A stretch of DNA of 64,000 nucleotides. It comes from Stichopus chloronotus (Eukaryota > Echinodermata > Holothuroidea > Aspidochirotida > Stichopodidae). The stretch's first letter is position 1. Each line of letters starts with the position of its first letter. Positions 27,726 through 64,000 of the stretch are shown one piece after another. The notes under the pieces are model-generated. The model searched no databases and was not told the DNA's origin. It worked only from the letters and a program-made list of their open reading frames with translations. Location: NCBI GenBank assembly GCA_021234535.1, contig CM037830.1:18965116-19029115 (forward strand), in the 5' to 3' direction. The position numbers and the translations under genes were made by a program.

Positions 27726-30705
27726 GTGGTCACACTGCTCACATTATATCAAGTGCTGAAGGCAATGGTCATGAATTAATGTAAAATCTCTCATTTCTGC
27801 ATCATGGGAAAGAAATCTCTCTTCACTAGTCTGGGACATTCATACGCATTCTGAAGTACACACATACAGCAGTTACCATTTCTTAATTTTCAACGATGGC
27901 CGATCGTGAGAAAGATCCGAAGGATTTCTTTGTGTTCAGAATAGCTGGTGAAAATGTCACATCAGGGACTCTACTTTCAAAGGGAATATCCAGTACTAGT
28001 AGATAAATTCTGCCAAAGTACCCAGGAGTGTGGCAGTGACAGCAGAAGTCTGACATCCACTTGTAAACATGATGTCCCTAAATGCATAAAGTTGACACTT
28101 GGCATCACCTTGAACCCTTCTGCTTCCTCACTGACTGTTGTTCCATCTGTTTTATTACATATGAGATGTAAAAATTACTTCTTGCAAGGATCCTCCTTTC
28201 ATCTTTACATTTAAAACAGCACCTCCATCGATTGATCTGTTGCCAAGCACTTACATTTTGTACTTCATGTAAGACAATGTCCAGCCGGCATGTGCATAAA
28301 AAAAATTAACAAATACCGTTGTTTCCTTACTTGTCATAGAATCATCTTCTTTTTTTTGGTGATGAAATGAGCCCTTGCTTTTACTGAAATCAGAGGGGTT
28401 TGTGTTTCTGCCATGTACAGGAAACGTTGGATCTAGTAACCTAAACTGAAATAGAGCCCGTGTCCAATCCAGCAAGTTGTCGCTCTTAGCTGGTTGAGCT
28501 ACCCCCTTTTTGAAATACCAATGAATTTTATTTTTGTCTCATATGCTAATGCAGCTGTCAGCATACAGTCCAACTCAGCTGAGTCACCATCTGCAGTTGT
28601 CTGGACTGACCTCAGTTCCTGTAACGTTTATAACCTAGATAATGGTCATGAGACACTTGGAGTCAGCTTGACTTTCATTAGTGTGTTGGGACAACATATG
28701 TGGTAAGAACCTGGAAGATTCTGAACGTTGCAAACTGAGGGTCACTCTGCGATACTGAAGAAAATACAGATGACCTTCCATTTCAAATTTAGATGAAATT
28801 CAGATCAATTTATTGCTCCTTCTGTGTCCGTCACAAAGAATCGTATTTGGGGCAAGTGCACTATCGTCTGTATCTCCTCAGCCAAGAATGTGTTATCAAT
28901 CTTCTGTCAAAACTGTTTTGTTACCACTATGTCTTTCAGGGTCTTCCTTTCTTTTGTCTTACAATATTGTGAATTTTTGCTATCGTACTCTGTCCAGTAG
29001 CAATTACATCATGTTGTGTAGAGCTTGACATTGATCATTCTTTACAATTTAAGTATTTTCCTTTATACTGCAATGGAATTATCATCAGTAAAGTGTTGAG
29101 AGTATGAACAGCAGGTGTGCTGTAGGAAGCTCTCAGAGCCCTGGCATCTCTGCACGTTCCCACAGCTGAAGCCTTGCCACAAAGAACGGTGTACGTTCAA
29201 TGCATGTTTTTCTGTACGGAACTCTTCTTCGAAACACACGACATGTTCCAAGCAAAGAGTAAACCTAATCATACATTCATGTGTTCTTTATTGAAGACTG
29301 TCATGTGTTGCCTTTATCCATGCATGTACACATCATGATCACCCTAAAAGAGGTTAGCCATGAAAGCAAGTTTTTCATTTGAATGTTTTGAAGATGCCAG
29401 CAATTGAAGGTCCCTTTTTGGGTGTAGACAGTAGAAGCAGCATTCCATTCACAGGAAATGATTGACGTAATATGGCAATGTATGGCAGGTTGATAATTTG
29501 AAACCAGTATTACTGATCATCTCTCCTGAGAGATGTAAAATGACAAAATTTGTATTTGTTGTGTGAAAAAGTGCAGGGGCCACATTACCAACATAGTTAT
29601 GGCAAGATTTCATTTGTGTGCAATAAGCAATTCATATTAACCAAACTTTGATTACCTCTTAAAAAAGAAAATTTTCTGTTGTAACATGATCAGTATGTTG
29701 TCATTGTCATAATGGATTTCTTGCTGAATAGCCAGCCAGGAGATCTTGTGCATCTCAGTTTGTTATCTGGGTTTTGTTAAGCACCTTGGCACATCCATGT
29801 GTCCTTGAGTTTAGATGTGTCCTTTAGTCTAACCTAAACCATTTCCCAGGCTTCTTTTAGACTGCTGTCCCTGTTTCAACATTTTCACCCCTTAACTTTC
29901 CCATGGCCTACCATTCATAGTGGGGTGCAATACAATATTTTGAGTTTTCTATTGACAAGAATCTTCAGAATGCAGACATATTGTGAAACAGGTATAGCGC
30001 ACCCAAATGAAGCTCAGTCAGTGTAAAGGTTGGACCTGGTCCGATGCTGCTCATAACCACGCCATTGATGTGTTATCAACACTAGGGACCCCCCAAGATC
30101 AGTGCCAATGTGTGTATTATAATCTCTCTGAAGTCATGAAGCTTATGTCAGAACTATTATTTTCATTCATTATTATAGGAATTCAAACAAACAAACAAAC
30201 AATATATATTAGAACATGCTATATCAATATTTTTTGTATGTCTCTTGATTTTATTGTGTTCCAACCTTGCTCTTCCCCTCTCACCATTCATTGTAAAACT
30301 TCAAAAGAAAAGTACAGACATTACAAGCAGTGAATTCACTTCTCTGGGGCTATTACACAATGCTTTGTTCTCTATCCTACATGCTGTAAGCACAAATGGA
30401 AAGAGCACTGTTGCACCCTGCTACAGGATGATTGAAATTTAAGCTGCATTCTGCGTATGTTCATGTCCTTTACTTTGTGCAATCATTATTACCTATGCTG
30501 ATGTAATTTCACGTATGGACTAGTAGATGAGTAATTCAAACTTTACTGTGAAGCTCATCACATTACGCCACCAGGCCCCTTTCAGGCAAAGTTATGAAAG
30601 AATGATTGGTAGCATATAGTTACTACATACACTTTTTCTCTACAGTCTAATACTCAAAATGGGTCAGGAATATGGAACCTGCAATGATTATGAAAAGTAA
30701 ATAAA
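27726..30705 (+). other. GNS: Probable long 3' UTR of GNS
   Basis: No exon-like coding run follows the GNS stop. The first canonical AATAAA that I found on the plus strand is at 30700-30705, followed by GT-rich sequence, which would give a UTR of about 3 kb. Weaker signals upstream could end the transcript sooner. A short (CAAA)n run lies near 30183-30200. Confidence 0.3.
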
Positions 30706-44400: not shown

Positions 44401-45055
44401 TATTTATCAGAAATGAGACCAATTTGTGAGAAAAATTTTTTTTTCGTATCTTTAGATTACTTTAACTGGGGCTGACATAACATACCTTTAAGAGACAATG
44501 GAATATTTTAGACAGTCAAGCTACAGATAGAAACAAAAGTGGGTCTCAATTCTAAAAAGTGGTAATTCATCTCTCACATATAAACATAACTTTTGTCTGA
44601 ACTTTTTATTAATTCCTATGAAATTATAGTACAGTTTATGGTTACAATGGCAAACAGAATTAATTAGACATTGACAATTTAAAATAAACATCTGAAAAAT
44701 TATGTGGTCATGACAAAATTCACTTTCAAAGTTGAAATTTTCATTATTGATCTCAGACTGACATCCAAATGTTCCTCAAAAGTATTCAAAGAGTATTAAA
44801 ATGAATAACCTTTGGCAGTTTTATCTATAAACACCTTCACTGATTGCACAATCAACCTAATTCAAGAAATATTAATATGACCTTATGGCTGCATTTACAA
44901 CACAGAGATCATTTCCTATATTGCCAAGGTTAGGAAAACATTTCGACATATCTTTTCGTCACTGGGCCACTTGACGAAATATTCTATTACATTTTGTCCT
45001 GCAATGCATTTGAAAGAATTATCCAGAAAGATCATTCTTGCTAAACATTGAACAT
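41448..45055. other. Intergenic region between LAMTOR5 and the NPL-zinc-finger gene
   Basis: The first few hundred bases from 41448 should hold the LAMTOR5 promoter; I see no TATA box that I would defend. A single AGGTCA-repeat unit lies at 42265-42475 (TGACCTTTGGCCT at 42348-42360). A poly-C/(CA)n tract follows at about 42490-42530. No gene is visible. Confidence 0.4.
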
Positions 45056-45061
45056 TTTATT
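45056..45061 (-). terminator. Candidate polyadenylation signal for the NPL-zinc-finger gene
   Basis: AATAAA on the minus strand, about 880 bases after the stop at 45941. ATTAAA variants closer to the stop (for example 45424-45429) are alternatives. Confidence 0.3.
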
Positions 45062-45940
45062 ATTATATTATGTCCGGGATGAACTCATGCATTAAACATA
45101 CTCTGTATTTAACGAGCTTTAATTAATTAGCTGAGCAAACATGATGCACTATCAAACTAAAACCTAATGCTTGCACAGATTGACAAATTAGATGAAAGGG
45201 AAAAACATATAACCTCTTCATTGCACTTTGCTGAATGATCTTGAACACATCAGCAAACACAGTTGAACTAATAAAAAGTGAAAATGAGGTAAGAAGTCTC
45301 CAAAATGACTGACAAACAAGGTTGCCCTCATGAAAAAAAACTTTTCATGTTGACTCTTTACTTCAACAACAAATATGGAGGCCCTCCAAAGTGCAACAAA
45401 ATGTTCATACTCACATACAATTTTTTAATGACTATTTTGCACATTCTCCAAGTACTTAGAAAATGTTTCAGAAACTTACATTAACAAAAATTTGATGCCT
45501 CAGATGACACACAGTCTGACGACAAAAATTTTTGAAATATTAAATCATTACAGGCATTACCTATCTTTAAAATAATCTTCGACCTCACCAGCTTTTACAA
45601 ACTGCTTTTCTTTTGTTGAGGTTATCTAAGAACTGTCCTTCCACTGGTTAAAATTACCCAGTGATACAAATCCACCCACAATCTCCAGAGCACAGCAGCA
45701 ACTTCAAGATAAAACCCAAATCTGACAAGGCAATAAACAACATATTTTTCCATTTGATATGAACAGGTCATCCCCTAATTTGGAGAAAAAGCCAGACCAA
45801 GACTAGAAATGATGCAACTTGGCAAGCAACCCCTTCAAAGACTGAATTATGATGATTGCAGGGTTATAGTTGCTCCAATTCTGTGCCTCTTGCACTCTGT
45901 ACTAAATACACAAGGCCAATCAACTAACGATGGACTTTCA

Positions 45941-46386
45941 TCAAGATGGATCGTACTTGCTGTTCGCATGGATTTCTTCGTGGATTCGCCTGCCAATGCG
46001 TGATGTGAAGGAACAGCTGCAGTAACGGCATTTGTAAATAGTCTGCTTCTCCATCAAGGTCTTGTGGACTTCTTTCTTTCTGATTTTGAAGACCTTTGAA
46101 GAATATTTTGATTTTACAAACTGTGCCAGTTTCTTCTTCTTAATTCTTGTGATTTCTTGCTCATCTAGCTTAAGTCTTTTGAAAGGTCTAACAGTACAGT
46201 GTCCAGATTGTGACGAACTTTGACCTTGCCTGCTGCTGACAGGCACTTTTGTACCATGAGAGGGAGTGGGCACTTTTTTGGACGGATGGTCTCCTCGACG
46301 ACTTGCTGAAGAAGCGGCCGCAGGTACTACATGCAAACGTTGCTGAGATCCATAGTGACTTACGATGGGTGGTGTTGATACTTTGC
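45941..46386 (-). CDS. Last exon: basic region and single C2H2 zinc finger
   Basis: 147 codons plus TGA, acceptor TTTTGCACCAG. A Ser/Pro-rich stretch is followed by a basic bipartite-type nuclear signal (PFKRLKLDEQE … RIKKKKLAQF) and then YKCRYCSCSFTSRIGRRIH…H, which has exact classical C-x2-C-x12-H-x3-H spacing. The protein ends eight residues after the last His. A lone C-terminal finger recalls plant HD2A/HD2C. Confidence 0.88.
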
Positions 46387-49300
46387 CTGGTGCAAAACAA
46401 AGAGGTAACCAGAATGAGGATATTATGAAGTGGAGAATGCGTGATACAGAGAATAAGATGATACAACAAACATACCCTACAGGGTGACAGGAAGTTGTGA
46501 AATACACTTTGGACAACTTTTTGCACGTTCTTCTTTCAAATATCCTCAATAGATTTGTGGTAAAACATGATCTGACAATGACAATTCTGTCAGAAGCACT
46601 CCAACAGTGAGAAAAAAAACCATTAACTTTTAATTTTTTCTTATGTGGACATCCCATAGATAATCTTCATGAGAATTTGTTTTACGTCTCTCCCCAGCTT
46701 GTTCACGGAATGGTGTTTGGTAAAAGGTCTGGAATATTTAGCTGAACTCAGGTAAACATTCATGACATTTGACCAAACAATGAATGCAAGATGCAGAATG
46801 CAGGGGTTGGATGGGGGGGAGGAGGAATGAGGAGAGGCAATGTTTTCAACTTGCTATGGTGATAGTGATATTGTGAAGGAGCATTTCATCCTGGAGTTGC
46901 ACGATGCACAGTCTAAACAATATCAGATACTGTCCTATAATTGTAATATAGACGTGTCAAAGCAGTGATGCTTGACTGCTAGAAAAATTGTCACAGTGTA
47001 GCTTGCCCTCTTTTCGTGTCAATACAATGGAAATTGAACCGCGGCAATGTTCGCATTGGTCGGGATGCGTTTATCAATGAAATGTTGCAAAGTACAATTA
47101 CAATGGATACAGAGAATGAGGGTCATTTCTCAAATAGATCAATAAAATTACCTGGTTTGAAAGGTTTAACTCTTCCTACGGAGTGTCTCATCCTGGACCT
47201 CTCGTTCTGACAGTCACGGTGTTCTCTTTCAGACTTTGACCTCAAAGTTGTCTTTGTATTGACACGAGACTTTATCTCACAGATTTTACACCGAAATGAT
47301 GAATTGTGACTCTTCTTGTGTTGGCATTTGAATCGAATCGAAGGACGAGTCCTAGATTGCTTCCATCCAGGGGGATAAATGATGCCAGACAAAACAGTCA
47401 CATCTGGCTCTGCATCAGCACCATGACTCTCTGGCCCCTTAGGAATGCCATCTGTAAAATCCAGCATGAAAACAGAGAGCTGAATGCTGAAGTCAATGGT
47501 TTTTGGAACTTCTTCCTATGCATGGTTGCAAAGACTGAAAGTGTTAACTTACTCTTTGGAGAAATGTATCTCCAGCAGAAGCCAAGTCGGATGGCCTGCC
47601 TGCTGAAAATGGCTGACTTCCACAACCACACATGTTGGCCTAATACTTACTGTTTCACCAGTGTAGCTGGCAATGAAAAGACTGTATAACGGCAAGTGCT
47701 GATTAATTGGATTAATTGGATAGCAAGAAATTTTTTTTCCCGAGTAGGTTCCAAAGCAAACTTCAAGAAATCTGTGCTCTTGTACTCATGACTCTGAGTT
47801 GCTCTCATTCCTTTGAAGATCTGACAAAGTCCTGTCAAGACTGCATAAACGCAACTGCCATTTGACAATAACTTTGTAATGCACTGATATCGCAATGACA
47901 ACAGAATGCTTTATTTCCAAGCATGACTGGCCTACAGTCTCTTAAATTTAAAACCAACTGGAACTGAAGCCAAAGCAATATGTATGCTAAGGTTTCAGTT
48001 TGCATAGGATTACACAAAATGGGGGAAAGACAATATCGTCTTCTGTAGTGCTGAGGTATACTCTTCAACCACACCGTCACAACCAAAGATTTTGTTCTGA
48101 ATACTTCCTGGCATATTTACAGAGGATGGGCAAATTGAGAAATCACAACAAAAGTTTTATAAACATTACATAAAACAGCAGAGAATAGGAGGTAGCTTTA
48201 AGTACATTTCCCATAGCATTTTCATTATCCAAGAATGTCAGTGTACAGTTTTACAATGAAAACTTATTATCGTGTTTCGGTCCTATTATTAACAATCAAT
48301 TCAAATCTTGCCAAAACAAGCCCATCACTGTGATGGCTTGATCATTGGCTGCAGCAAAAGATCGGCTAAAACATGCAGAGTATTGTTTACATCCAGTGCA
48401 TAATTTGGCTCAACCATCTGTCTTCACCAAACAAGGATGGTAAAGTTATTTTAGGTGGTAATGTAGTGTGTTCCTATGCAGATGTGTTTGTGAGCCTGGT
48501 GGCAGTCTAAAATTGCTTACTGTACACTTTCTTTGCACTTCACCTGGCATTGTGCAGTCTCAAAGAATGAATTGAATTAATCTTTTACCTTTGCTCCTTC
48601 TTTGTTTATCTTTAGTCATTCTTGATTCATCTTTCCCTGTGGATCTTCTTTTTGTTTTTTTCTCAAATGCTTTCGATCAAAAAAGTGAAAACACATGCAT
48701 TGATTGCAAAACTACTGAATAAAAAAAACCTGAGTCTCAACGGACATTGCAGTCCATTTAAAGGAATATCTAGTTGTAATCAGGGCATTTTCTTTTCTTT
48801 CTTTTTTTTTTTGTAGTATGCACGCATTAGTAGGTATGAGAAAACAGAACCTGCAGTAGCTTGTAGGGAGTCCCATGTGAGGGAAACTAAAGTAGAAGTG
48901 TGTTTGACAGCAAACTCCCCAGCGATAAACATGTTTGACACACAGTTATCACACAGCTAACTTACCGGCTTAATATGACATAGGTTTGTACTAAAGATTT
49001 CTCTACTGAAATAGACACCTAAGACAATCTTCCAACCCCTACAGTCAAGTTCCAATCCATACAACAACACAGTAAAATATCTGGTTAACACTCACTCCGT
49101 TAATTTACCAATTACTGCTATGCTGCACCATCTGAAAACTGAAAAACCCACCCTGTGCCTGTCTCAGCAGGTTTTTAACCACTTGGTTATCAGAGCGTGA
49201 GTCACCCTCTCCCACCTTGCTCTTCGGGGCAGAGGTGTATGGTTAACCTCGAAGAATACACTGAGTTAAGCAAGCAGTTCCAACAACTTGTTGATAAGGA

Positions 49301-52209
49301 GATTGTGGTCTATAGTACCTTATGAGCTTGTTTTGCTGGAGAGATGAAATTAGACATAATGAGTCTGGGAGAAGTAGATGAAGCTGCAGAGACACAACAT
49401 ATCACTAATGGGCTCTATGATGACATGTCGTCTGTAAAAAAGCCTCTCTTATTTCCAAATCAATCAAATGAATACAAGGGCTCAAGGGATAACTGTGTCA
49501 CCTAACATCATTTTCTTTCTCTCACTGAAAATCTAAAAAAGATGTTCGTAGGCAAACAGTGGTTTGTACACTTGTTACAAAGAACAGGCTGCAACTCTGT
49601 CCCTTACATCGTACTGATGTAGCTGAAGAAATCTTTTTGAATTACTGACCTGTCACCAAACTTTGTGACATGCAAAAAAAATTTTTTCATGTAAATTAGG
49701 GTAAAATGATACATGAATCTCTTATTAACCAAAACTATCATAAAATGGAGGAATACCATATCCACCAAAACACTAGGCAGGATAAAATCTGACATTTCTT
49801 TTAAAATTACACCATTTTTTAATTAGATACGGGACATTCATTCATATTGCATCATTACTATTAGCTTGATCAGGATGTCCCCTTCAAAAACTTTACTGCA
49901 AACAATTTCTACAAATTACCTTCTGCATTAGCATACTGTGGATTCATATGATAATTAAGTGACAAAAAGTCTAAGGGTACAATGGTTCCATGAGTGACAC
50001 CCCAACAACATATGATAAAGTGGTCTGACAGTGCAAGGCAGTGGCATAAATCTTGAAGCTCATTAGTGTCATGAAGTTCATTAGCTTGTAAGTTTGGTTG
50101 ATACCAATATGGCGGTATTTCTGGCAAAGGTCAACAGACTGAGGTCAACCAGCTAATTTCTATACTAAAAACAAGAAGTCAATGGGATTTTCTAACTACT
50201 TATGGAAGAATTGCTCAATTTCAATAATTTAATGAATTTTTCTGTACTACTGCAGTATATAGAGCACAGACACGCCTTGTCTTTATAACTTTCAAGACCT
50301 ACGTACCTCAGTAAACACCAAAACTGAGGTGTCAAAAATATTGGTGCTGATATTTTTGTTTTTTTGGTTCCACCCAACCCTAGAAATTTAAGTCACGTGT
50401 ATAGAGCATGTCGGAAACTTTCCGAAACTGTATTAGGATTATTGACTGTGAAATAACTTGATGAAAGGCCAGGAAGATTTTGAAACTTCACATACTGTGC
50501 AATTGAAGAGCAACCTCAAATTATCACTTAAAAGTTGGGTGACAGGAAAAAAAAACATTTTGGAGTATTCGCTGTATGAGTCATTGGATATGTTGTGAAG
50601 AGCCACAAATTCTATCAAATATTGACAATTTTACAGGCAAATTCCTGTCTTACATCTGCACCATTAATATTAATATAAACATTGACCACATATGCAAATT
50701 TGTGACTCATGAGAGGAACTCACATGATATGTCCTTTGTTATCCTTTGTTTTTGAACCTTTGCTTCAAGGACAGCTGAGAATTTTATATCTCCCACAGGT
50801 TTTATTTTGGAAGCATATATTTCCTTCTTTAAAAATATTGATATCACTTGTAAATGTGTAAGTAAATAATGTGAAAGTAATTAAGAGACAACACATAATA
50901 ATTAAAGAAATACCTACACTGTTCAGCGCTCCACATCATCATTGCATTTTCATCAAAATTTGAAAAGTCATACCTCAAAAATGGTAAAAGATGTAAACAA
51001 AATTTCAACAGATAGTCATTCATGGTTTCACTCTGCAACTCTGAATAAAGACAGCTCTTTTCTACATGCATGTGACATGACCTTTTGGGGTTGTCTGCTC
51101 TCTAAGGGTCTTTTCATGAGGACACTGTCCTTTCTGACCCTTTTCTCACTTTACTTATTCTGAGAATAACCAAAGGCCAAAAAGGCAATGACACACAAAT
51201 TAGTAACAACTGGCTGTTTTGATAAAATTTACCTTCTTTCTTCGGTGAAGAATAACTGTCATCTCCCTTTTCCTGATCGTCATCTTCGTTGCCAGAGGAC
51301 AAGATGATGATCTCTGGGATGGCATCGGCCTTCTTTCCAGAGCTGGAGTTCTTTGCTGGTTCTTCCCATTCTAGGAGTAAAAAGTGACGTCAAAAAAAAT
51401 AGTTGAAAGAGATGATTATACTTTGATTCAACTCTCCCAGGTAATAGTAGCAACTTGTTTACGACAAATACACACAGATGTACACATACGGAGCGACGGC
51501 AGGACACGATGCCATTGGAGTAATATATACAACAGTTTAATCAAAATGTTAGACTTCAAATAAAAGACAAGAGTGGACACTAATTTGTTACACCAATGTA
51601 AACATAAAAGGAGGTTACAAAAAATGATTCATTCATATACCCTTCAGTATCACTGTTTCTCTTCTTTCTGTAACAAGGGGAGCCTCATCCTGTCCATCCT
51701 CTGAAGAGTCATCGCTGCCTCTCTGATCTCTGGACGTATTGGTATCTACAGGGAAAGGGAGTAATTTGAAGTAGGGAATCTGAATAATTTGAGCACCACA
51801 AAAATGACAGATATTGAAAAGCAAACATTCATCACTAGCTCTGTGATGTCTGGACAGTGCATCTGCAAAGGAAGACATTAAATATGAACTTTCAAAATCA
51901 TAGGTTAAAGATGTTTTAAATGTAAACAGAATTTTTTGAAAGTCAGACTACAAACAACTAAAATTGCCTCAAATGATGTTCTTGAAAATCAGCAGAAAAG
52001 AATGTTTGGAAGAATGCTGAATTCTGCAACCCACTTTTAAAAGGCATACAGACGTACCATCAGCAGCAGCAGCAGCAGCAGGGAAAGTTTTATCTTGCTC
52101 CTCCCCTGTCTCTTCCTCCTCTTCTTCTTCCTCCTCCTCTTCTTCTTCTTCCTCCTCCTCCTCTTCTTCTTCTTCCTCTTCCTCTGCTTCTTCTTCCTCC
52201 TCCTCTTTG

Positions 52210-52245
<36 letters not shown>

Positions 52246-55200
52246 CTTTCTTCCTTGTCTCCTTCATCTCTGTCTTGTTCTAGAAGACATTGCTCCTCAT
52301 TTTGCTCTTCAACTTGTCCTGACTGCATCACTTCATCTTTGTTTGCCATATCTGCATGTGCAAGGTGAGGAAATCGTGTACAACATCAGTGTGATAACAG
52401 CCATCAGTATGAATGATCTAGATGACAATTGTATAACCTTTCACCAACAGACATTGACGGTGACAGAAACATGTCAGACTATCTAAAGATGTTGAATTTA
52501 AAGTTTCAAGCACTTTGTATTGAACATGCAAAGGTATCTATCACAAATGAATGACTGTACGTCAATCCACAGCACCACTATCATGTTGAGATGCAATAGC
52601 AAAGCATCTCAACATGATGCCCCTTTGGAATTTTGAAGCGACAAAGTGCTTTAGAGCCCATGGCAAGGATGGAAAGATTGCACCAAGATCACAAAAGATT
52701 TGACAGTCCTGTAAAATCAGTGGCACAGTAAATACAGTTTCACCAGTAATCTTCATGTGTGGAGGGGGTTTAGGGGGCAGTGTGCCCCCTAGCAAAAATT
52801 ACTGCCCCCCAAAATAGCACCCAAATAGCAACCCTGTGCAAAAGCATCATGCTTCACTACGAAAGCTCTCCTTGATGGAAAAATATTGACAATAGGCTAC
52901 TGCCATTCAAAATAGAGTAGAAGTCATGTCTAAGTGGCACCATATTGCATCATTTAGCGTATTATTCGTCAAAAATTTCTGGGTGTGATTTTGAGGCCCC
53001 TACCCTCAAATCCCCCCCCCCATGATCACATTGCAATCATGGATGCCCTACATGTGTTGCTGCCTCTCCCCCCCCCCCCTTCTTAAAATTCTGTGGCTAA
53101 CACTGGGATTTTTTTTTTTTTTTAACCTGCTCTCAGATAGCCTTTAATGAATTACTTCATTTCATCCAATGAACTTTATTTGTGCAAAACTAATCTCTTC
53201 TTCCTATACATACCATTGAGTCTAGGAGCAGTCTCTGAGCTTCTTTGATGAGGTTGAGTCTGATCTGTGAGACATTTCTCAGCATCTGCATCTTTCCTCT
53301 CTGAAAGGGAGCCACAAGGAGAGGAACACTTTTGTTTTACGACATCTCAAAGTGTGTAAAACTATCATCTCATAGTGCTCCTTTTGACAAACAACCTTCA
53401 CAAAAAGATTCACTTCTTAAATGTAGGCCTACACTAAACATCCATATAACAAATGATAGGGGTTGATGGAAAGCACTTTGTATTTATGGCAGCTGAACCA
53501 TAGTTTGATCAACATTTTTTTATGAAATCTGCATGCAAATTTGTCTCCCTTTACATTATCATATGAGATTCCAGAAAAAGAATGCATTCCTGACATGGCC
53601 CTTGAAAATACTTTTTTTGTAAGTGCGCTTTGCTTCTTTTTGTTTGTTCTACTTTTTACACCAACAATCTCTGTAAGAGACACAAGGTGGTTGAACTTTT
53701 GTAGAGGAAAAAGCACTAACAAGTCAAAAAAGGAATGATTTATCTTTAAGAAAACAGCAAGAGCCCAAGGGCACTATGGTTCCTTAATAAAGTGGGAAAT
53801 GTCATGCACTCAACACATAGGCAACCAAATTGCATACAAAATAATACCCAATCTACCAAGTCTGCATAAAATCTGATTGATAATTGTCGAGATACTGACG
53901 TACAGATTTGGGCCCATGTAAATTTGTGCCCACAAATGGACAGTAACAAATTCAAACAAAATTTGTATTCAAGGACACAGGCCCCAAACATTTCATCTAA
54001 AAGTTTGTTAGGTCTACATAGCCAATATTACTCTACATTCATTATCCCAACAATAACATAACTTGGATACATACCACCTATCACTATGCAGCACATCTAT
54101 GCTAACTTTGGATACATTTCAGCAAATGATTGTAGAATTATGGCAACCAAATATTTTTACCTTTGACCCATAACCTGATCAATATGCATGACATGGGCAC
54201 CAAAAATATAGCACACCTTCTCAATATGGTAGACTACTGGACCTACATACCAAGGTGACTTTCACCTGACTTTCCCTATTGAGTTAGAGCTTACCCAAGC
54301 GTCACGGACACCACACACACATACACATATACACACAGCATGTACCCGCAATCAATGCCTTACGGGGTATTGTGGACAGTTTCCTGTAAGGAAGTCACTG
54401 AAATTCCCCTCTTTTGGATGTTTGCATGCAGCACGTGATTGAAACAAGAGAGGGTGGGCTCCGGGTATCAGGTGACACACCTCTTCAGTTCTCAAAGCTT
54501 CAAATCTTTCGGGCAGCTACGCCAGTTATGTGCTCCATGTGAACGAGGAAGGATGTGCTAGGCTCTCCCACTTGTGCTATGGCAGCGTCAGTAGGTGCAC
54601 ACACATACATCCCTTGGCCTAACACAGTGGGCACTCAGTACGCACACACACACATGCACTCACATTACACATGGAGTGAGGACTTCATTGAATTTTGCTT
54701 TGCTGTTGCTTCCTGAATCCTAACCTGAATATTACACTTCCTACTAATATTTTTCCAAGGACTTAGAAATCTGTAGAAATTCGTATATTCTTTTGTCCAC
54801 ATCCTTGGAAAGTATTACAATACAAAGGCATACACACGCACACAGACCAACCTGCCTGCATAAGTTCCACTGCTGATGCAAGGAACCAAAAACACCACGG
54901 AAAGTGAAAGAGGATTGAAAATCTTGCCATTAGCCTCCCTTGATATTGACTAATAAATGCATCAAAGACTATCCAAGTTGTATGTTTATCTTAAAAAGAC
55001 CATTTCACTAAGTTTTGTTGGAAATTATAAATCTATTACACATTATCAAGCAATGTGCATCACCACTTGTCATGAAGTATACACTAACCCATTACAAACA
55101 TAAACCCTTGTTTTGTGCCTAAACCCTCAGGCAGCTTGCAGTGGCATAGTTTGTTATAATCCTTTTAGAAAAACAAACTCTGATAAAAGAAATACCAACT

Positions 55201-58200
55201 TGCAACTTTCAATCAATTGCTGTCGAAAAGCATCTCTGATTTTTATTTTTCACCTTTCATGTCAAAAGCTGAATGAGTATCACAGACATGCCTTGACACC
55301 AAAGTCAATAATTCTGCCTTGAGAGGCAAATCGTAAAATATTTGCTAGTTTTTAATTTGAGCAAACAAGTTACGGGTTTCAGTAAGAAACTGGTCTCTTC
55401 ATTTCTCCCCCACAAGCTTAAAAGTCCTCCAACTAATGCACTCCCCCCTGCCACAGGGGAAATTTAATGAGGGCAGTAATAATAAGGAAAGACAATTATG
55501 TCATCACTGAAGAATTACACTGAAGAAGTAACCATGGCTGATAATAACTTGTCAAAATATACACAACTGTGTACACTTCATGTTTATTGCATTTGACACC
55601 AACACAGGTAACTAATATCAACACAGAAACACTAGCCAAAGTGATATTCATACTGAGAGATACCTTGGGAGGCAACCATGGCAGCTTCCAGCTGTTCGGT
55701 GGAATCTAATAATTCTTGTTCTGCTATGGTCAGGTTTCCTTCATTCTCCTTGTATGCTGCTGTGGAGGACGGCAAGGGAGTTGTGAGGTTACGATCGAAT
55801 CATTTTACCAGTACAATACTGATCGAAATTGTTTTTCTTTGCACAATATTTCATGAAGTCTATAAATTAACTAGCCTAAATGCACACTCGCCAAGAAAAT
55901 TTCAAAGTTTGCATGGTGTAAGTGCTTTCAGAGAATCCAATGCAAACAGAAGAAAAGCCAGTAAGGGGTACATTTTTTTATGTTTCATTTTCAACAGTTT
56001 CCTCCTACAGAATGCAAACTTGTTAAATTACAGAGTTTTAAGGTAAAGTCCACTATACGGATAAAGTTATAACCATATGTGTGTACTAAAAATTTTATAA
56101 TGACGATGTTTACCAGGTCAGCTATAAAGCGTCTTATAAATAAGACAAATTGTCAAACATCTCAACAGGTTTTCATCATTTAAATATCATATATTTAACA
56201 ATAAAAAGAACAAAAGACCACACACAAAAAACACGATATCAACATGATGGTCAGATGTGCCTATAGAGAAACCGTCCACTCGCGATTCACAGAAGGATCA
56301 ATCATTGCAAATTGATAGCATGAATTCCTAGAACCAATGCCTCTGTGTTTCACCCCTTTATCTCATTAAAATCAATCAAAACTTAGAGCAAATGTGGGAT
56401 ACAAGTATTACACTGTGTGTTAATAGTTAAGCACTGTTGTACCATACAGAACATCAAAGACAATTTGGCAAATGATTGAGAACAAATTTGTGCACTGGAC
56501 CATGCAGTTGAAATAGCATTACATTCCCAGGCAGATATTCATTCTCCCCTACTTTTGGCCCCCAAAGAGGGGTAGTGAGCAGTTTTCTCTATTTGGAAAG
56601 AAGTCTGTTATGAATCACCCCATGGATGAGAGGTATGAAACAACTTCAGAAATTTGGGATGCACAGTAACTTTGCATCTGCTTTAACATACCCCTTCTGG
56701 AATGCAGTTCCTCCATTTCTTCTCCATCTCTCTCATCTTGTTCCGCTGCATCTCCTGACCCAACTGAGGGTCTGCGAACAGAACCCCTCTCTGCAAAGGC
56801 TAAAATGTAGTTAGAGTGTTTGCTTCTTTGCTATCAACATTTTCTTTTCGTCTAATTCCATCTTTCCATGTTTTCTACAGGCAAGATTTACAACTATATT
56901 AATATCAGTATGAGTTGTGTTCCCTTCCAGAAAGTGAGAAAGCAAAATTCTTAGGTGTCTTTATTAATGATAAGCTCACTTGGGCAGACCATACTTACTT
57001 TGTAGCAACTTAAGTCTTTAAAGAAGTAGGCATAATTGCAAAACTTAAATTTAAACTTTCCTTAAAGGAACTCAGATTGATTTACAAAGGTCTTATTTTA
57101 CTTCAGCTCTCTTACTGTTGCAGTGTCTGGTCAGGAAATCTAATCTTAATAAACTAATTTTTCAGAAAAGAGCCGTCATGCACATGACTTGCTCTGCACC
57201 ATGGACCCAACCAGTAGTTTGTTTGCATCATTGAATTTGCTTAAATTACCTGATGTAGTTACTCTGAACTCAGCAATATTTATACATCGCTGTTTGAATA
57301 ATTTACAACCAAGTAATTTTTCTTCCTTCTATACAGTAAACAGTCATATACATTCCCACTATACCAGACAGTGTGCTAATCCCCATTCTGTTTTAGTCTA
57401 TCAATACTATGATAACAGGAGCCTCAAACATTGGTAAACTTTTGTCTGGAATATGCTGCCCCAAAATTGTCCGTCTAAACTTTCTATGGTATCTCTTGAG
57501 ACAAGATTATTTTTGGAGAAAAATAAGAATGAGTTCTGACTAACTATGGTAGATTGATGGGTGGGTGGTTAGTCTTTGGTGGTGGGTTAGTGGTTTTTTT
57601 TTTCACTTTGTTTTCTTTCTGGGCAGTGTGCTTGTTTTTAAGCCCCTGATGGTTTCTTAAGAGCACTTCATTCCACAGCTATAACTTTTTCCTTGTTCTC
57701 TTTAATTTGTTCTATTACCGTATTCACCCTTCTGTAATATTGTTGTGGAAAACTAATAAATGAGATGAAATACACTAAAAACAACACAGAATTAATGATC
57801 TTTCTTTTTCTGTCCATTACACAAACACAAACTCTAACAATGTATAGGAAAAAAGTACAGCAAATTTGGTAAACAAAGAGAGAACTAGGCAAAACATGAA
57901 AGGAATAAAAGTAATACATACAAGTCCTATCTGTGCCATCTTGTGCTTCTGAAGTTGCATTTGATTGTCCCTGAATGAGGGCAGATGTGTAAGTGTATCC
58001 ATTCAAGTGAACTTTGTCTGAAAAGACACAGAAAAGACATGGAAAGGTAAGATCTTAGGCAAAGTAAAAGGAAAAGCTAGTTCTTGTGCTGCTTTTTCAG
58101 GAAATTTGAGTATGTAGGCCTTTTTTTCTTTTTTAGCCATGAACCTGTTTGTGGCATAGCAAACTGCCTCATCACTGTATCAATGATTGCCATATGTTGC

Positions 58201-61200
58201 AAATACATTGCTAGAGACATGGAAAGATGGCTTCCATGGTCAGAGCAAAATATTTTCAATTTAACACTCCATGTTGATAGTGAAAAAAAGAAAAATTCAT
58301 GCAGTGGGGAAAATGTGTGTGGGTAGGGACAAGAAACTAGCTTTTTTTTTTTTTACTTGGCATTGCAAGAGGCTATCAAACACTATGAAGAAATCTGACA
58401 CAAGTTTGCTTCAAAATAAATACAAAAATTAATGTATGTACTAAACTGTATGTGGGCATTCAACAATTGAGACTCAAATTCATGTTTGCTGTGATATACT
58501 GCCTTCGCAACTTTGCATGCATTCATAACAAAACACAGCATAAGGTAAGAGACAATAACATATTAAATACTGAAAAAAGCATAACGATGTATTAACCACA
58601 TTCAGAGGTACATAAGCATTTTACGGTTAAAGTACTCAGCAAAATGCATCACTGTATTCCAAAGAAAATGCTCTAGTATTCAAGAAATTTTAGCTCCCAA
58701 GGCTCCAGTTCTACTGGCGACACTGCACTACATTTAATAGAACTGCAACTCCCATCTCCCCCATCCCCCCCTCCCCTTCCACTCTTCTCACTGAATACAA
58801 TTCCTCACACATTCTAATCTTTTTCACAATAATACCAAAAGGTGTTGTTCGTACAGGGATCATCACCACAAAGTACAACTAAGCATAAAGAAAAATTATC
58901 AGAGAAATTACACTCCCAAGACTTGAGATTCATTCCTACATATAACAGAAAAAATTCTGGGGCAAGAATATCCAAATTTCCAAATTGCTAGTCAGGCAAG
59001 ACCAAACAGTGGCACACTCTTGAAGCATTGACTGGTGTGTGCCTACCAAGGTGCTAAATGCGCATTCGAAGAGAAAGTGTTGTTAACTTGTTAAGGAAAT
59101 GAAGTCACAAGGATACTGTAATGGCAGTTGTGTTTACATCACTGAGCCGATCTACATCACGTACTTCTCTGCGCAGCAAATAATTGTTGGCACTTTTTGT
59201 ATTGGTGCAACCAGGTGCTTTGAATCAGAGATATCTTGAGACCACTAACCTTTAGTATGAAAGAATGTTGCGTGGCATTTGTAGGGCAGTGGTCTCTGTC
59301 ATATTTAAGACGAATTTAAGACATTGTCTTGGCGTTTCAGTACTAACCTGTTACAGAATTAAATAGACCCACAGTATGTCTCTTATCATATTTACTCTTG
59401 CCAACAGAGTAGGAATTTAGCATTCGGACAGACTCGGAGAGGTTAGTATATTTCCTAATCTTTATGTTGTTTATATATAGCAATTTGAAGACTCACTTTT
59501 GTATGTTTTGTATTTTGTATATAATTAATGTATTTTGTATTTGTTGACTGTAGTTTTCAATGAAGGAATGAAGCAAGTAAAGAAGTAAGGAAAGAGGAAG
59601 GAGAAGGAAAGAAAAACAAAAAAAAACAAAAAAATTTAAAATAAACATTATTCTTCCAGTGAAAGGGGTGAGTTTTGTCATTTCATTTTTTTTTTTGGTG
59701 TTTCTGGACTGGTTTAGAGTACACAGGACTGTGGGCTATACGTAGATGTCTTACTTTGACCTCAAATGGACTTGAACCTACATGATAACACAAGTAGGTC
59801 ATATACTTTGAAAGGGTTCTAAAGTTCAAGTAATTGAAACTTCTTGAAAGAATGTGTTTAAATGGTTCTACAACTTTCACCTCTTGTAACTGCAAATAAA
59901 CTTGAGAAAGAAAATGGTAGAGAGAATCCTGTTACTAGTAGATACCCTAGATACTATGTGTAGAATAGAGCAACTTTCATTTCTAGAAATGATGTATTTG
60001 AAAGGTGCCTCCTACAATATAAAAAGAATGTACACCTTGCAGGTCAATTAGAGAGAAATCTGCAAACCAAAGATTGCATAGAAGTCAAACTTGAAGTTAA
60101 AGAATATTCAATTTTGAGACTATTTGGAGAGATTCTCTGACTTTGGACTCATGACATTGGAACTCCTCCTCAGTAGCAATGGAGATCATCCACTCATCAA
60201 GGGCTATCAATACATCAACTCCAAACTTTAGCATCTTTCAGCTTTTGAGATGCATTGTTTTTGTTTACAAAATTTGTTGAACTCATAAGATCTTTGAAAA
60301 TCATGAATAATAATGAAGGAATAATCGACTGACCACACCAAGGTCAAGCATCTTCTGCATCACACACACACATACCATTACCATCACATACTGCAGAATA
60401 CTTGCACCTCTAGAAATTAAGTGTAACTTAAGTCTAGAACTACATCAAAATATTTAGGAAACCCAAATCCTATTCATCCAACTCCCATCTCAATAGCCTG
60501 TTTTATTGCAGAGATATAAGATGTTGAAAGATATCCACTTAATTTGAAATAGTCAATTTTGCAATAGTTTGTGATGTTCTACTTGTGCAATTCACATTAC
60601 TTGCTTTTTGTATCCTTTTGAAATTAAATTGTTTATCTATTAACCTTGACAAGTTTACTGTTTCCTTGCATAGCAAGTTGTATAGAGAGGGCTTGTATAG
60701 TCAAGGCACCCTATAACAGCAAGACAGTGATCACATTTCTTGACAAGATCAAATGGCTTTTGTAGAAAAAAACTAAGAAAGCAATTTGAGTACTACAAGA
60801 AAGACATCACAATTTATTGTGCAATCCACCAATTTACATTGAGTGACTAAGCTTCAGCATCTCAGCTCAGGAATGACCTGTGAAGATGGAAGATTTCAAT
60901 TCAGTTTTTGAGCTTTTTGAAACATATTATTTTTAAATTTCAGACTATAGATACACTTTACAGAACAAACAGTAAATGATGTAACATACTTGGCCCTGTG
61001 ATGACAAAAGTGACTTCCTCTCCTGCTGAGAGTTTCAGATTGAGGTCCTGATGGAATACATAACCAACAATAAATGAGCATAGGAGATGCTCCTCATTGC
61101 CTTGTTGAACTGCTAGGTGAAGGAGCTGCTTTGAGTGACCTGTCAACGGAAACAAACATTTGGAAGATTAATCTGTTTGATGGAAAATAATTTATTCTTT

Positions 61201-62910
61201 TCATTCATGATACATAGCATACAATCATCCCTTACTATGAATATGCTTCCTTTCTAAAATTTTGATAATTTAGGACATTTAAATGTATTGAAAACAAAAA
61301 TAAAATTAAAATCTTACATTTTTTCTTTATAACACTTTGTTTGATTTTGGTGAGATATTAAGCACATTCCCCTTGGTCTGTATGTACTCAAGTCAACACT
61401 TGTACTGTATTGCAAAACAGCAACTTTGCTTATTGTTATTTTATTTCTAAGTATCTTCATACTTTATAAAGAAATAAAATAGAACTACGAAGTATATACC
61501 ATTTTGGCTTCTTTTGGCACTTTGGTTTTATATGAACAGGGGTTGCCTATGCCCTGGTACCGTATGAAAAAAAGTGTCTGGTCACAGATTTGCAATAGGT
61601 GATTTTGGCTAGGGGGGTATAGCCCACCAGCAGTATTTATTTTTGGGGCACTACAAGAGTAAAAGGCTGCCTGTCATTGGTGATTTCTGGTCAACTAAGG
61701 GGTATTTTCATGCAAGTATTTGCTGTTACACTCAGCATGCACCGATGGTGCTGCTCTGTTTTGATAGTCTTCCTGATATTCTAGCTAGCATGGAAGTAAT
61801 GATGGGTGCCACCTGAGCCTTGTCCTCCCCCCCCCCCTCCCCCCAAGGTGCATCCATGCCATCACTGTGTTTGACTGCTGGACTTCAATGCACTTCAGCA
61901 GTATACTGTACCTCCTTCTCTACAGTCAACAATCGCGAAGGAAATATGGACATCTTGCTGCACAACATACTTGAATGGTCGAAACGGATCAATCGTTAAA
62001 CCTGAAAGTAAACCAAGATGCCATCTCATGAATGAGTAAAGTACTGCTGAAATAAAACGTCTTCATACAATTAATTCATTTACCTTCCTCTATATGTGGA
62101 CAGAAAGGTAACAGTCACAACCTTTTAAAGTGTGATAAATAATTTAAAGTTAAGCATCTTATTTACGGTGGAAGGATCCAATAAAGTTACTTTAAAGGGA
62201 AATAGGGCGTTTAGAATACACCGACATGACATGCAAAAGAAAGAGCTTTAGTCATTGTTAACCATTCAGACTCATCAATAAAGATATGCCAAAGCTTCAT
62301 CTCCTCAAAAAATTAGGCATGTGATGAGTAACGGAAGATGCATTATTTGAATTTTTGAAAAAGTTTGGGTGAACAAATTTGTGTTGAGCTACAAATAACT
62401 GAGTTTCTATCTGTGAGAAACTTATTTCTTGAAAAGAAGACCACTGTCCTTCCTCATTTTGAATAATCCATCATTCTGCATCCACAAACATTGGTTGTAA
62501 AAATATGGCTGTTTTCTGAAAACAAACGCCCTATTTCCCTTTAAGACTTTTGATATAAGAATGCATGTCGTACATACTTTCAAAACTTCTGAGATGATCA
62601 GTGTCACGTGTTTTAAATAAGAATTACACAATACTTACAGAGTCAGGACTACGACTAAATGGAAACATCAGATTAATTACCGTATACCAAATAACATAAT
62701 CAAAATATGTTACATCAAAAATTACATCAGTGATATATGACAGAGGTAGCCCGGTACTGTATATTGTAATTTACAACAGGCTCATATATAGGCTGAGAGA
62801 CTGCCATCAGGGTTATATTAGAGTTAGTAATGTTTGAATTAAGCAATCATACTTGGTAATTTTTATGTACTTCAAAATGACTACACCAATACAAACTTAC
62901 CCCACAACAT
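45941..62910 (-). CDS. Nucleoplasmin-like domain / acidic tract / C2H2 zinc-finger protein (about 13 exons)
   Basis: Exons on the minus strand: 62910-62901, 62001-61924, 61139-60990, 58017-57922, 56799-56692, 55759-55664, 53300-53214, 52351-52058, 51862-51836 (optional), 51745-51641, 51370-51233, 47451-47152 and 46386-45941. All join in phase 1 and give about 644 residues (635 without the mini-exon). Residues 1-90 (MLWGLTIDPFRP…DVHISFAIVD…LNLKLSAGEEVTF…NKVHLNGYTYT) match the NPL fold of FKBP39/46-type and HD2 proteins. Residues 112-208 are polar linker. Residues 210-306 are extremely glutamate-rich. Residues 371-382 (IIILSSGNEDDD) look like a SUMO-interaction motif. The C-terminal part is basic (PFKRLKLDEQE, RIKKKKLAQF) and ends in one C2H2 finger (C616, C619, H632, H636). 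The likely role, inferred only from the domains, is nuclear histone or chromatin binding. The first exon ends in a clean GTAAGT. Confidence 0.83.
47152..47451 (-). CDS. Cys/His-bearing basic exon
   Basis: Ninety-nine codons in phase 1 with a good TTTTACAG acceptor and GTAATT donor. The segment FKCQHKKSHNSSFRCKICE followed by SEREHRDCQ has paired Cys and His, but the spacing (19 residues between CxxC and the next His) does not fit a classical finger. It may be a degenerate or unusual zinc site. The exon end HSVGRVKPFKP is basic. Confidence 0.8.
48589..48636 (-). CDS. Candidate 48-base basic micro-exon
   Basis: Between GATCCACAG and a GTAAAA donor, 48 bases are open in the required phase and encode KDESRMTKDKQRRSK, which suits the basic region. 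The upstream tract is purine-rich, making the acceptor weak, so inclusion is uncertain. It is not counted in the 644-residue model. Confidence 0.35.
51233..51370 (-). CDS. Exon with SUMO-interaction-like motif
   Basis: Forty-five full codons in phase 1. The run PEIIILSSGNEDDDQEKGDD fits a SUMO-interaction motif: four hydrophobic residues followed by serines and an acidic cluster. The next exon upstream in the transcript (51745-51641) carries another Ser/Asp-rich stretch (GSDDSSEDGQDE). The SUMO-binding role is inference from the motif only. Confidence 0.75.
51836..51862 (-). CDS. Candidate 27-base mini-exon, possible old exon duplicate
   Basis: After the acceptor TTCCTTTGCAG, 27 bases encode ALSRHHRA in phase 1 before a GTGATG donor. 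The next exon (51745-51641) begins TNTSRDQRGSDD, and the sequence here reads ALSRHHRASDE past the proposed donor. The two resemble each other, which suggests that one arose by duplication. It may be skipped or dead. Confidence 0.35.
52058..52351 (-). CDS. Acidic-tract exon (poly-Glu and poly-Ala)
   Basis: This 294-base exon encodes ANKDEVMQSGQVEEQNEEQ, then some 60 residues that are almost all Glu with a few Asp, Lys and Ala, then TGEEQDKTF and a six-Ala run from GCT/GCA repeats. Long acidic tracts after an NPL domain are typical of nucleoplasmin-family histone chaperones. The tract is an imperfect (GAG/GAA)n repeat, so its length is likely variable between individuals and hard to assemble. 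Acceptor CACATGCAG and donor GTACGT are good. Confidence 0.85.
52745..53100. repeat. Poly-C rich repeat fragment in an intron
   Basis: GGGGGCAGTGTGCCCCCTAGCA, several C-runs (near 53013 and 53070) and TGTGGCTAAC recall the GTAGCCA MITE family, but no pair of ends can be drawn. This is a probable old fragment. Confidence 0.25.
53756..54893. repeat. 1.2-kb interspersed repeat, copy 3 (diverged)
   Basis: It begins CAAGAGCCCAAGGGCACTATGGTTCCTTA and ends GATGCAAGGAACCAAAAAC, matching the ends of copy 2. The interior is strongly diverged, with added (CA)n patches and only a partial CTTTGACC remnant near 54161. It lies in an intron of the NPL-zinc-finger gene. Confidence 0.55.
56920..57540 (+). pseudogene. 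Broken non-LTR retrotransposon (end of reverse-transcriptase ORF)
   Basis: Read in shifting frames, the plus strand gives AKFLGVFINDKLTWADHTY, LKELRLIYKGLIL…LSYCCSVW, LNLLKLPDVVTLNSAIF, HYTRQCANPHSV and NMLPQNCPSKL. This is the usual C-terminal order of LINE (Jockey/CR1-like) polymerase proteins. Stops and frameshifts interrupt it several times, so it is dead. It lies antisense in an intron of the NPL-zinc-finger gene. Confidence 0.7.
57922..62910 (-). CDS. NPL domain exons 1-4
   Basis: Exon 1 contributes only ATG-TTG-TGG-G before GTAAGT, yet it gives the MLWG start typical of NPL domains, where a Trp-Gly pair begins the first strand. Exon 2 gives LTIDPFRPFKYVVQQDVHIS, exon 3 LHLAVQQGNEEHLLCSFIVG and LNLKLSAGEEVTFVITGP, and exon 4 KVHLNGYTYTS. 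The order follows the Drosophila FKBP39 N-terminus (WGL…KYSQ…FHIS…LDLNFSKGD…VSLLGYL) without large gaps. The exon 4 to 5 junction would create TAG if exon 5 began at 56790. Starting exon 5 at 56799 (TTTTAG acceptor) avoids this, which decides that boundary. Confidence 0.85.
61560..61860. repeat. Degenerate GTAGCCA-family fragment with poly-C
   Basis: TTTTGGCTAGGGGGGTATAGCC near 61602, GCACCGATGGTGCTGCTCTG near 61739 and a C-run near 61828-61848 match parts of the 9873 and 38747 elements (CCGATGGTGGTGCTCCGCT and their C-runs). Ends are not recoverable. Confidence 0.35.
62192..62544. mobile_element. Intact 345-bp MITE with TTAA duplication
   Basis: The element occupies 62196-62540. Its ends are AGGGAAATAGGGCGTTT at the left and the exact reverse complement at the right (17 bases perfect). 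TTAA is present on both sides (62192-62195 and 62541-62544). TTAA targets are used by piggyBac and Kolobok transposases; which one applies here is not decidable. It has no coding capacity and lies in intron 1 of the NPL-zinc-finger gene. Confidence 0.8.
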
Positions 62911-64000
62911 GATCCTATATCACTTTATTCTGGGTTTACTGTACACACAGTGAAATATTCACGTGTTACACACCATACCTGAAAAAGAGTACAATTGTCA
63001 CCATTATAAATCACTTTATAAAACATTGTATAAATTTCAAACCAGCTCTGTGGCTGGAATACCAGTGCTTTGTTCCTATTTCATACCAAAGTTAAAACAA
63101 ACAGTAAACAGCTCAGTACTATAGATGTACAGTATGTGTAGAGTAAATGACTTCTTTATATTTACATACCCCTACATTGACACACCACTTGCTACGGAAC
63201 TTTCGCAGTATCACTTTGAACAACTGTACTGTATTTTAGGTAGCGTGATATTAAAGATTTCTGTCTGTCCCAACTTAGTATACATGTGTTTCTTTTATGA
63301 GCTTGGACAAACATGAAGCACTTGGGTGTTTTTGATGAGTCTATTATTCTATCATCTAGTTGGGCACCAGAGGGTCTAATGTTTATGAAATTATTTTGCT
63401 TCCCAGATTTCAAATGTAGGTCCACCAAATCATGCCAGCCCCCTCTATATCTTAACTTGTAAAAGCTTATCCTCTTGTTTTATGTCAAGTTTGTCAACTT
63501 TGCTACTTTCACCTACAAATATATGATAGATTTCATAGTCATATATGATAGAGTCATGTAGATGTTTTGAATTTCCAGGTTTATTACAGCTTCAACATAA
63601 TAGTACAAGAAAAACATCACGCGCCAGTTAAATTGGCATCAAAGAGATGACAATATGAAGAGATGACAATATAATGGCAAGCGGCTTCCCGTTGGAGCGC
63701 GCATGCCTATTTGTACACATGCAGGTGTTCAGACTATGTTGCAAAATATTGCATAATAATACATGTTACCTAACATTGCAGAAATCAAGTAAACAAGTCA
63801 CATAACATTACACTTACCAAAAACATTTATTTTATTTTTTTTTGTTTCACTTATAATGAAGATATCCATAATTACACCAAACATAATTTCAAGGAATGTA
63901 CATCAGTAGGCCTAGAAGTATGCCAGTGACATGAAATCCACAACTGGTATGCTGAGTATATATTCATAACAGAACAATTCCAATACGCACTTCTATTTCT
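62911..64000. other. Upstream region of the NPL-zinc-finger gene
   Basis: This should contain the 5' UTR and promoter on the minus strand. I see no TATA box or CpG-rich patch I would defend. A small direct repeat of AGAGATGACAATAT occurs at about 63643-63673. The right edge may hold further 5' exons. Confidence 0.3.

Follow-up and report, generated by a model that had tools for sequence, protein, structure and literature searches.

A gene of the sea cucumber Stichopus chloronotus predicted to join an NPL domain, an acidic middle and a C-terminal C2H2 finger, and its likely place among animal chromatin proteins

The gene and its thirteen coding exons

The DNA considered here is a stretch of 64,000 nucleotides from the sea cucumber Stichopus chloronotus (GenBank assembly GCA_021234535.1, contig CM037830.1, positions 18,965,116 to 19,029,115 of the forward strand), which as a whole is called the window below. 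On its minus strand lies a gene of 13 coding exons, whose predicted protein consists of an N-terminal NPL domain, a long acidic middle with a poly-Glu tract, and a C-terminal basic region with a single C2H2-type finger. The same order, with an acidic middle that is free of the poly-Glu expansion, is found in an uncharacterized protein of another sea cucumber, Apostichopus japonicus, and the gene likely specifies a new kind of animal chromatin protein.

The region 45001-64000 was read, the open frames on both strands were listed and the gene was rebuilt on the minus strand. From the start ATG at 62908-62910 to the stop codon at 45941-45943, the coding exons comprise 2001 bases (666 residues and the stop), and an in-frame TGA is located 12 bases upstream of the ATG. 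All of the 12 introns have GT-AG borders, and all 12 are in phase 1. A preliminary description of this DNA had already joined the exons between 45941 and 62910 through phase-compatible introns, and its coordinates proved to be exact. It should be kept in mind that the exons were picked by eye and that phase 1 was expected once the first exons had it. Therefore, the phase shared by exons 5, 7, 8, 9 and 11, which have no separate homology support, is not independent evidence. The exons and motifs, with tblastn identities to A. japonicus where an exon was recovered, are as follows.

62901..62910, minus strand: exon 1, coding part; ATG, encoding MLW and the first base of G4; donor gtaagt; the A. 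japonicus protein likewise starts MLWGL
61912..62001, minus strand: exon 2; NPL domain, GLTIDPFRPFKYVVQQDVHISFAIVDCREG; tblastn 76%; PF17800
60990..61139, minus strand: exon 3; NPL domain, GHSKQLL...GEEVTFVITGP; tblastn 81%; PF17800
57922..58017, minus strand: exon 4; end of the NPL domain (NKVHLNGYT; domain end at about 57992) and start of the linker; tblastn 59%; PF17800 up to residue 92
56692..56799, minus strand: exon 5; acidic linker; upstream acceptor ctacattttag; no tblastn recovery alone
55664..55759, minus strand: exon 6; linker, ...NLTIAEQELLDSTEQLEAAMVASQ; tblastn 53%
53214..53300, minus strand: exon 7; linker; GT-AG, phase 1; no tblastn recovery alone
52058..52351, minus strand: exon 8; poly-Glu tract built of a short-repeat array
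51641..51745, minus strand: exon 9; acidic linker; GT-AG, phase 1; no tblastn recovery alone
51233..51370, minus strand: exon 10; WEEP and the core resembling a SUMO-interacting motif (SIM); tblastn 42%
51294..51317, minus strand: candidate SIM, PEIIILSS, with acidic residues after it; the only [VI][VI]x[VIL] match in the protein
48589..48669, minus strand: exon 11; Lys/Arg-rich, candidate nuclear localisation signal; aligns with the basic region of A. japonicus; no tblastn recovery alone
47152..47451, minus strand: exon 12; EPDVTVLSGIIYP and a segment containing CxxC; tblastn 35%, with isoform X1 only
45941..46386, minus strand: exon 13; linker, basic stretch, C2H2 finger and stop; tblastn 62% over the last 78 residues
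45968..46030, minus strand: C-terminal finger C-x2-C-x12-H-x3-H; four ligands identical in A. japonicus

Exon 5 has two acceptors nine bases apart (56790-56799, minus strand). The upstream acceptor at 56799 keeps the reading frame, which is also kept when the entire exon is omitted; the cag nine bases downstream, at 56790, was rejected since it gives a TAG at the junction. By choosing between the two acceptors, splicing could shut down the transcript. A possible small extra exon near 51845-51865 was also seen by eye and excluded for want of support. Exon 5 was included in the gene model of the tblastn stage, in the intron check and in the scan for motifs and acidity, and was left out of the Pfam scans, the homologue search (a version of 630 residues), the pairwise alignment, the identity counts and the column shuffle.

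The counterpart in Apostichopus japonicus

Then, are the two ends of this protein carried by one gene? The homologue search with residues 1-115, which considered 57 candidates, yielded two proteins at E <= 0.001, both of them isoforms of one uncharacterized A. japonicus protein that come from a single gene, namely X1 (597 residues) and X3 (501 residues). In both isoforms a single chain runs from the NPL domain to the finger, in the order seen in S. chloronotus. When X1 and X3 were compared with the window by tblastn (list threshold 24 bits), 7 of the 13 exons were recovered in order and on the same strand, with identities of 35-81%. These are exons 2, 3, 4, 6, 10, 12 and 13, among which exon 12 was found by X1 alone. 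The same list also includes many low-complexity matches at the poly-Glu exon and a stray match at 29655-29771 (25.8 bits).

The NPL domains of the two species are identical at 79 of 92 positions, the fingers at 18 of 22 and the basic stretches before the finger at 26 of 46. In four pieces of the linker, the identical positions of the alignment number 46/172, 17/59, 30/82 and 11/64 (17-37%), and the remaining counts are 7/14 before the SIM core, 8/11 within the core and 4/8 at the C-terminal end. Judged by its NPL domain, its order and its C-terminus, the A. japonicus protein is the apparent orthologue. The two isoforms differ by a single insert of 96 residues, present in X1 at the position of exon 12, and X3 thus lacks the segment matching this exon; such a difference is what the skipping of a phase-1 exon would give.

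The order of NPL domain, acidic tract and C2H2 finger in one animal gene, as put forward in the preliminary description, is borne out by this single-chain protein, and on the sequences compared one animal gene carries both the NPL domain and the finger. According to another explanation, the NPL exons and the finger exons would belong to two neighbouring genes and their join would be an artefact. It could draw on the facts that the S. chloronotus model rests on genomic DNA and that the A. japonicus proteins are database entries. However, because one A. japonicus protein has both ends in the same order, a two-gene artefact is very unlikely, with a probability close to nil; moreover, the exons in between are conserved in order and the 12 introns are phase-compatible.

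No relative beyond the two isoforms was found among the 57 candidates for the S. chloronotus NPL region, nor among the 3 candidates for the C-terminal 78 residues and the 6 candidates for the NPL region of A. japonicus; the searches are shallow, since the method needs shared exact words, and consequently they do not show absence in other animals. Animal proteins of this NPL-finger type may be more widespread among deuterostomes than such a shallow search showed.

Some other features of the window can be described here. The plus strand carries a sulfatase gene, with exon sequence at 17001-17375 (Sulfatase, 37.1 bits) and again at 25513-25764 (SGSH_C, 51.7 bits; Sulfatase, 34.0 bits), and we take this gene, at 17001-25764, to be most like N-acetylglucosamine-6-sulfatase. 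An open frame of 342 residues at 2156-3181, also on the plus strand, contains the string FVDLTSGKTDSDE and has no Pfam match at E <= 0.1. Within the intron between exons 4 and 5, on the plus strand at 56900-57450, there are frame pieces that presumably resemble the end of the reverse transcriptase of a long interspersed nuclear element (LINE); four reading-frame pieces from this region gave no Pfam match.

Domains and the proposed chaperone role

The claim of an N-terminal NPL domain was confirmed by Pfam, in which PF17800 matches residues 2-92 with 63.3 bits (cut-off 23.4, E 3.7e-17, for the N-terminal piece of 147 residues); in the A. japonicus proteins the same profile scores 53.9 and 53.4 bits. 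Pfam Nucleoplasmin, by comparison, has no match at E <= 1 in the S. chloronotus pieces or the A. japonicus proteins. An FKBP domain was matched by Pfam neither in the two whole A. japonicus proteins nor in the S. chloronotus pieces scanned for it, namely the N-terminal piece, exon 12 and exon 13. In a sequence search of the PDB with the single NPL sequence, FKBP43, FKBP39 and FKBP53 scored 24.0, 23.3 and 23.2 bits, respectively, and of the seven listed matches these three NPL-FKBPs are the ones with E < 0.001; HDT4 scored 14.1 bits, against 13.0-13.2 bits for three unrelated chains. With a two-sequence profile, the scores were 22.5 for FKBP43, 15.7 for FKBP39, 17.9 for FKBP53 and 14.3 for HDT4, with three ribonuclease chains at 14.4. 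Consequently, HDT4 is not separable from chance by sequence, since unrelated chains score alike, and the family comparison is one of bit scores rather than a tree. As for single residues, the pore residue His24 of FKBP39 corresponds to His22 in S. chloronotus and to Tyr in A. japonicus, while Ser26 and Tyr86 correspond to Ser24 and Tyr91 in S. chloronotus. The position of Asp62 is taken by Asn67, and Asn is present there in both sea cucumbers, likewise in FKBP43 and FKBP53.

The poly-Glu exon noted in the preliminary description is real, with 38 acidic residues among the densest 40, in exon 8, but its length is not conserved, the densest 40 residues of the A. japonicus protein containing 19. 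Because the DNA of exon 8 is a short-repeat array, with tandem short repeats at 52093-52255, the length of the tract is read as a recent expansion, and it may vary between individuals. Downstream of this tract, the longest identical run of the linker, IPEIIILS, is followed by acidic residues in both species; its length of eight identical residues was reached in 15 of 5000 column shuffles. The pattern V/I-V/I-x-V/I/L is matched exactly once in the S. chloronotus protein, in X1 and in X3, at the same place in both species, and this single core is flanked by acidic residues (EIIILSSGNEDDDQE and EIIILSTDEDESDEK). The pattern V/I-x-V/I-V/I has no match in the S. chloronotus protein or either isoform. 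EIIILS with its acidic residues fits the published consensus, V/I-V/I-x-V/I/L with acidic flanks (PMC2808386), and is a candidate SUMO docking site. A further hydrophobic motif, EPDVTVLSGIIYP in exon 12, reads EPEVTILSDIIYP in A. japonicus and does not match the strict SIM patterns; the exon also has a conserved CxxC.

The last 75 residues comprise a Lys/Arg-rich stretch and the finger, C638-x2-C641-x12-H654-x3-H658 in the numbering of the 666-residue protein. Its four ligands are all identical in A. japonicus, and KCRYC, SFTSR and GRRIHEE are identical in both sea cucumbers. Among the 49 PDB sequence matches listed at E <= 5, 44 are C2H2-type fingers by name. In a structure model of A. japonicus X3, based on a five-row alignment, the finger is built as a helix and two short strands, its blocks having predicted local distance difference test (pLDDT) scores of 80, 80 and 60, against a mean of 38.4 for the whole model; a further helix, at 164-183 in the region of exon 6, is of low confidence. 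In the C-terminal piece of S. chloronotus, a sub-threshold QueH match (15.5 bits, cut-off 23.5) outranks the finger, and it is taken as chance because no such match is listed for the A. japonicus proteins.

For this gene, which is recognised by homology, we infer with moderate confidence that its product is a histone chaperone of the NPL type, which would bind DNA through its C-terminal tail. Its NPL domain would assemble into a homo-oligomeric ring, like other NPL domains; those of FKBP39, Fpr4 and HD2 are described as pentamers, and FKBP39 is reported to associate with histones (PMC4414354). Histone binding would be the task of the ring and of the acidic stretches, and in the case of Fpr4 an acidic region is reported to suffice for histone binding (PMC5476585). 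The complex would be anchored on nucleosomal or linker DNA through its Lys/Arg-rich regions and the single C2H2 finger, which the ring would present in several copies. That is, the basic and finger tail would fill the role of the basic FKBP domain in yeast Fpr4, which according to the same source binds the linker DNA of nucleosomes and not free DNA (PMC5476585). Finally, the chaperone would bind SUMO through its conserved EIIILS-acidic motif and in this way be steered to SUMO-marked chromatin, as DAXX is by its SIMs. By analogy with these systems, the protein would be a histone chaperone brought to chromatin by its basic-finger tail and its SIM.

Several points weigh against this proposal. A lone zinc finger seldom gives sequence-specific DNA binding. 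For the NPL domain of FKBP39, one paper reports by its title a tetramer rather than a pentamer (PMC5225439). The Pfam finger zf-C2H2_4 stays below its cut-off of 27 bits, with 13.8 bits in S. chloronotus and 15.0 and 13.6 bits in the A. japonicus proteins; as for the C2H2 finger of the preliminary description, the ligand spacing is present and the ligands are conserved, but the Pfam match is below threshold. In the X3 model, with its low mean, the NPL blocks have pLDDT scores of 29-56. A Foldseek comparison of this low-confidence model with the PDB gave no match reaching E 0.001 among the 50 listed; in this list of weak matches FKBP43 ranks second, and the HDT2, HDT3 and HDT1 domains are mixed with unrelated chains. 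Only acidic stretches as such are common to both species, the poly-Glu expansion being absent in A. japonicus. The column shuffle for IPEIIILS assumes that the columns vary independently, and it draws on two species. Short SIM-like strings are said in PMC2808386 to arise by chance, and EIIILS therefore stays a candidate SIM.

Could the finger rather make the protein a transcription factor? The finger and the basic region would then bind specific DNA, and the NPL domain would merely oligomerise and multiply a weak single finger. This is consistent with the conservation of the finger ligands and of most of SFTSRxGRRIHEE, as well as with the number of C2H2-type fingers in the PDB list given above. 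However, the finger is single and degenerate by its Pfam score, just one of the 49 PDB matches lies below E 0.001 (25.8 bits, summed over several fingers), and the acidic stretches suit histone binding, so a transcription factor appears improbable. A nucleolar NPL chaperone for ribosome assembly, with a basic stretch and finger that bind RNA or ribosomal proteins instead of chromatin, seems unlikely to a lesser degree. FKBP39 is reported to be nucleolar, with the small-subunit processome among its interaction partners (PMC4414354), maize HD2 is an acidic phosphoprotein of the nucleolus according to PMC9968887, and the tail of the sea-cucumber protein is Lys-rich; the conserved SIM-like motif, however, points rather to SUMO-rich nuclear sites. 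The histone chaperone attached to chromatin is kept as the preferred reading in the following comparison.

Comparison with known NPL proteins

Three layouts of NPL proteins are distinguished by Edlich-Muth et al. (PMC4414354), that is, the NPL-FKBP, the HD-tuin with a finger and the nucleoplasmin without a further domain. Three NPL classes are also given in a paper of 2025, where the HD-tuins are plant-specific nucleoplasmins (PMC11993163), and a cotton study reports HD2 members in plants only, the finger being missing in some of them (PMC9968887). The preliminary description had stated that no named animal protein with the HD2-like order is known. This agrees with the two latter sources, which call HD-tuins plant-specific (PMC11993163) or report HD2s from plants only (PMC9968887); the A. 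japonicus counterpart, which has the order, is an uncharacterized protein. Among the literature matches listed (titles and starts of abstracts, with most subscription journals outside the coverage), no animal protein with an NPL domain and a C2H2 finger was found. The A. japonicus entry found in the literature is ANO39, in a table (PMC12784826), and for the oyster 'mitotic apparatus protein p62' the excerpt of PMC12551290 gives a nucleoplasmin-like domain and does not mention a finger.

With the classical nucleoplasmins (NPM1-3, ANO39), the sea-cucumber protein would share a ring-forming domain and has acidic tails in common. However, it matches Pfam NPL and not Pfam Nucleoplasmin (E <= 1), and it has a finger. 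The NPL-FKBPs, such as Drosophila FKBP39, yeast Fpr4 and Arabidopsis FKBP43 and FKBP53, resemble it in the PF17800-type NPL domain, the xWG start and the acidic tract, and FKBP43 and FKBP53 also in the Asn at the position of Asp62. These proteins have an FKBP domain where the sea-cucumber protein has a basic region and a finger, and the latter is not assigned to the NPL-FKBPs because no FKBP domain was found in the whole A. japonicus proteins or in the scanned pieces of S. chloronotus. DAXX, which is not known to have a finger, can be compared with respect to its way of working. It is described as a histone chaperone in which an acidic domain is paired with two SIMs, one at each end, and its histone-binding region is a different one (PMC6735914).

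The plant HD-tuins (HD2/HDT) are similar in having an N-terminal NPL domain, a variable acidic middle, a C-terminal C2H2 finger (in the members that have one) and a basic stretch like a nuclear localisation signal (PMC9968887). Is the gene, then, a true animal HD2, whose join of NPL and finger predates the split between the plant and animal lineages, and might it have the deacetylase activity that has been reported? The domain order is the same, an xWG motif is present at the N-terminus, and deacetylase activity was reported for HD-tuins purified from cell extracts (PMC4414354). On the other hand, the HD-tuins start with MEFWG (PMC9968887), whereas both sea-cucumber proteins start with MLWGL. 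The suspected catalytic pair of HD2, His25 and Asp69, which is taken as His24 and Asp62 of FKBP39 (mapped via FKBP39 and not by direct alignment with HD2), is not kept, the Asp position being Asn in both species and the His position Tyr in A. japonicus. For want of MEFWG and the His-Asp pair, the protein is not filed as an HD2. In addition, its NPL domain matches the NPL-FKBPs, HDT4 scoring about as low as chains without any relation, no other animal relative appeared in the shallow homologue searches described above, and deacetylase activity was reported as not detected for an isolated Arabidopsis HD2 NPL domain (PMC4414354). An animal HD2 is thus highly improbable. The data lean to a separate fusion, because no relative outside A. 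japonicus was found in that shallow search, and most likely an NPL-FKBP-like N-terminus would have acquired a finger tail in an event separate from the origin of the plant HD-tuins.

More tentatively, it is quite possible, if short of probable, that the histone chaperone proposed here represents an animal fourth class of NPL histone chaperones, in which a ring, acidic stretches, a SIM and a C2H2/basic tail would serve to deliver or remove histones at SUMO-marked chromatin, and in which the layout of the HD-tuins was reached independently. An animal NPL-finger protein shows either that NPL domains can acquire a finger tail on more than one occasion, or that this class has an earlier origin than was assumed. 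Since the suspected catalytic pair of HD2 is not kept here, the protein offers a natural test of whether this pair matters in an NPL-finger protein, and the SIM-like motif gives a direct hypothesis for how such a chaperone could find its sites. As compared with the plant HD-tuins, the sea-cucumber protein is longer (666 residues versus mostly 232-384 in the cotton HD2s, PMC9968887) and, by a scan of the sea-cucumber proteins only, has a SIM-like motif; as far as the compared sequences go, the likeness between the two is one of domain order only.

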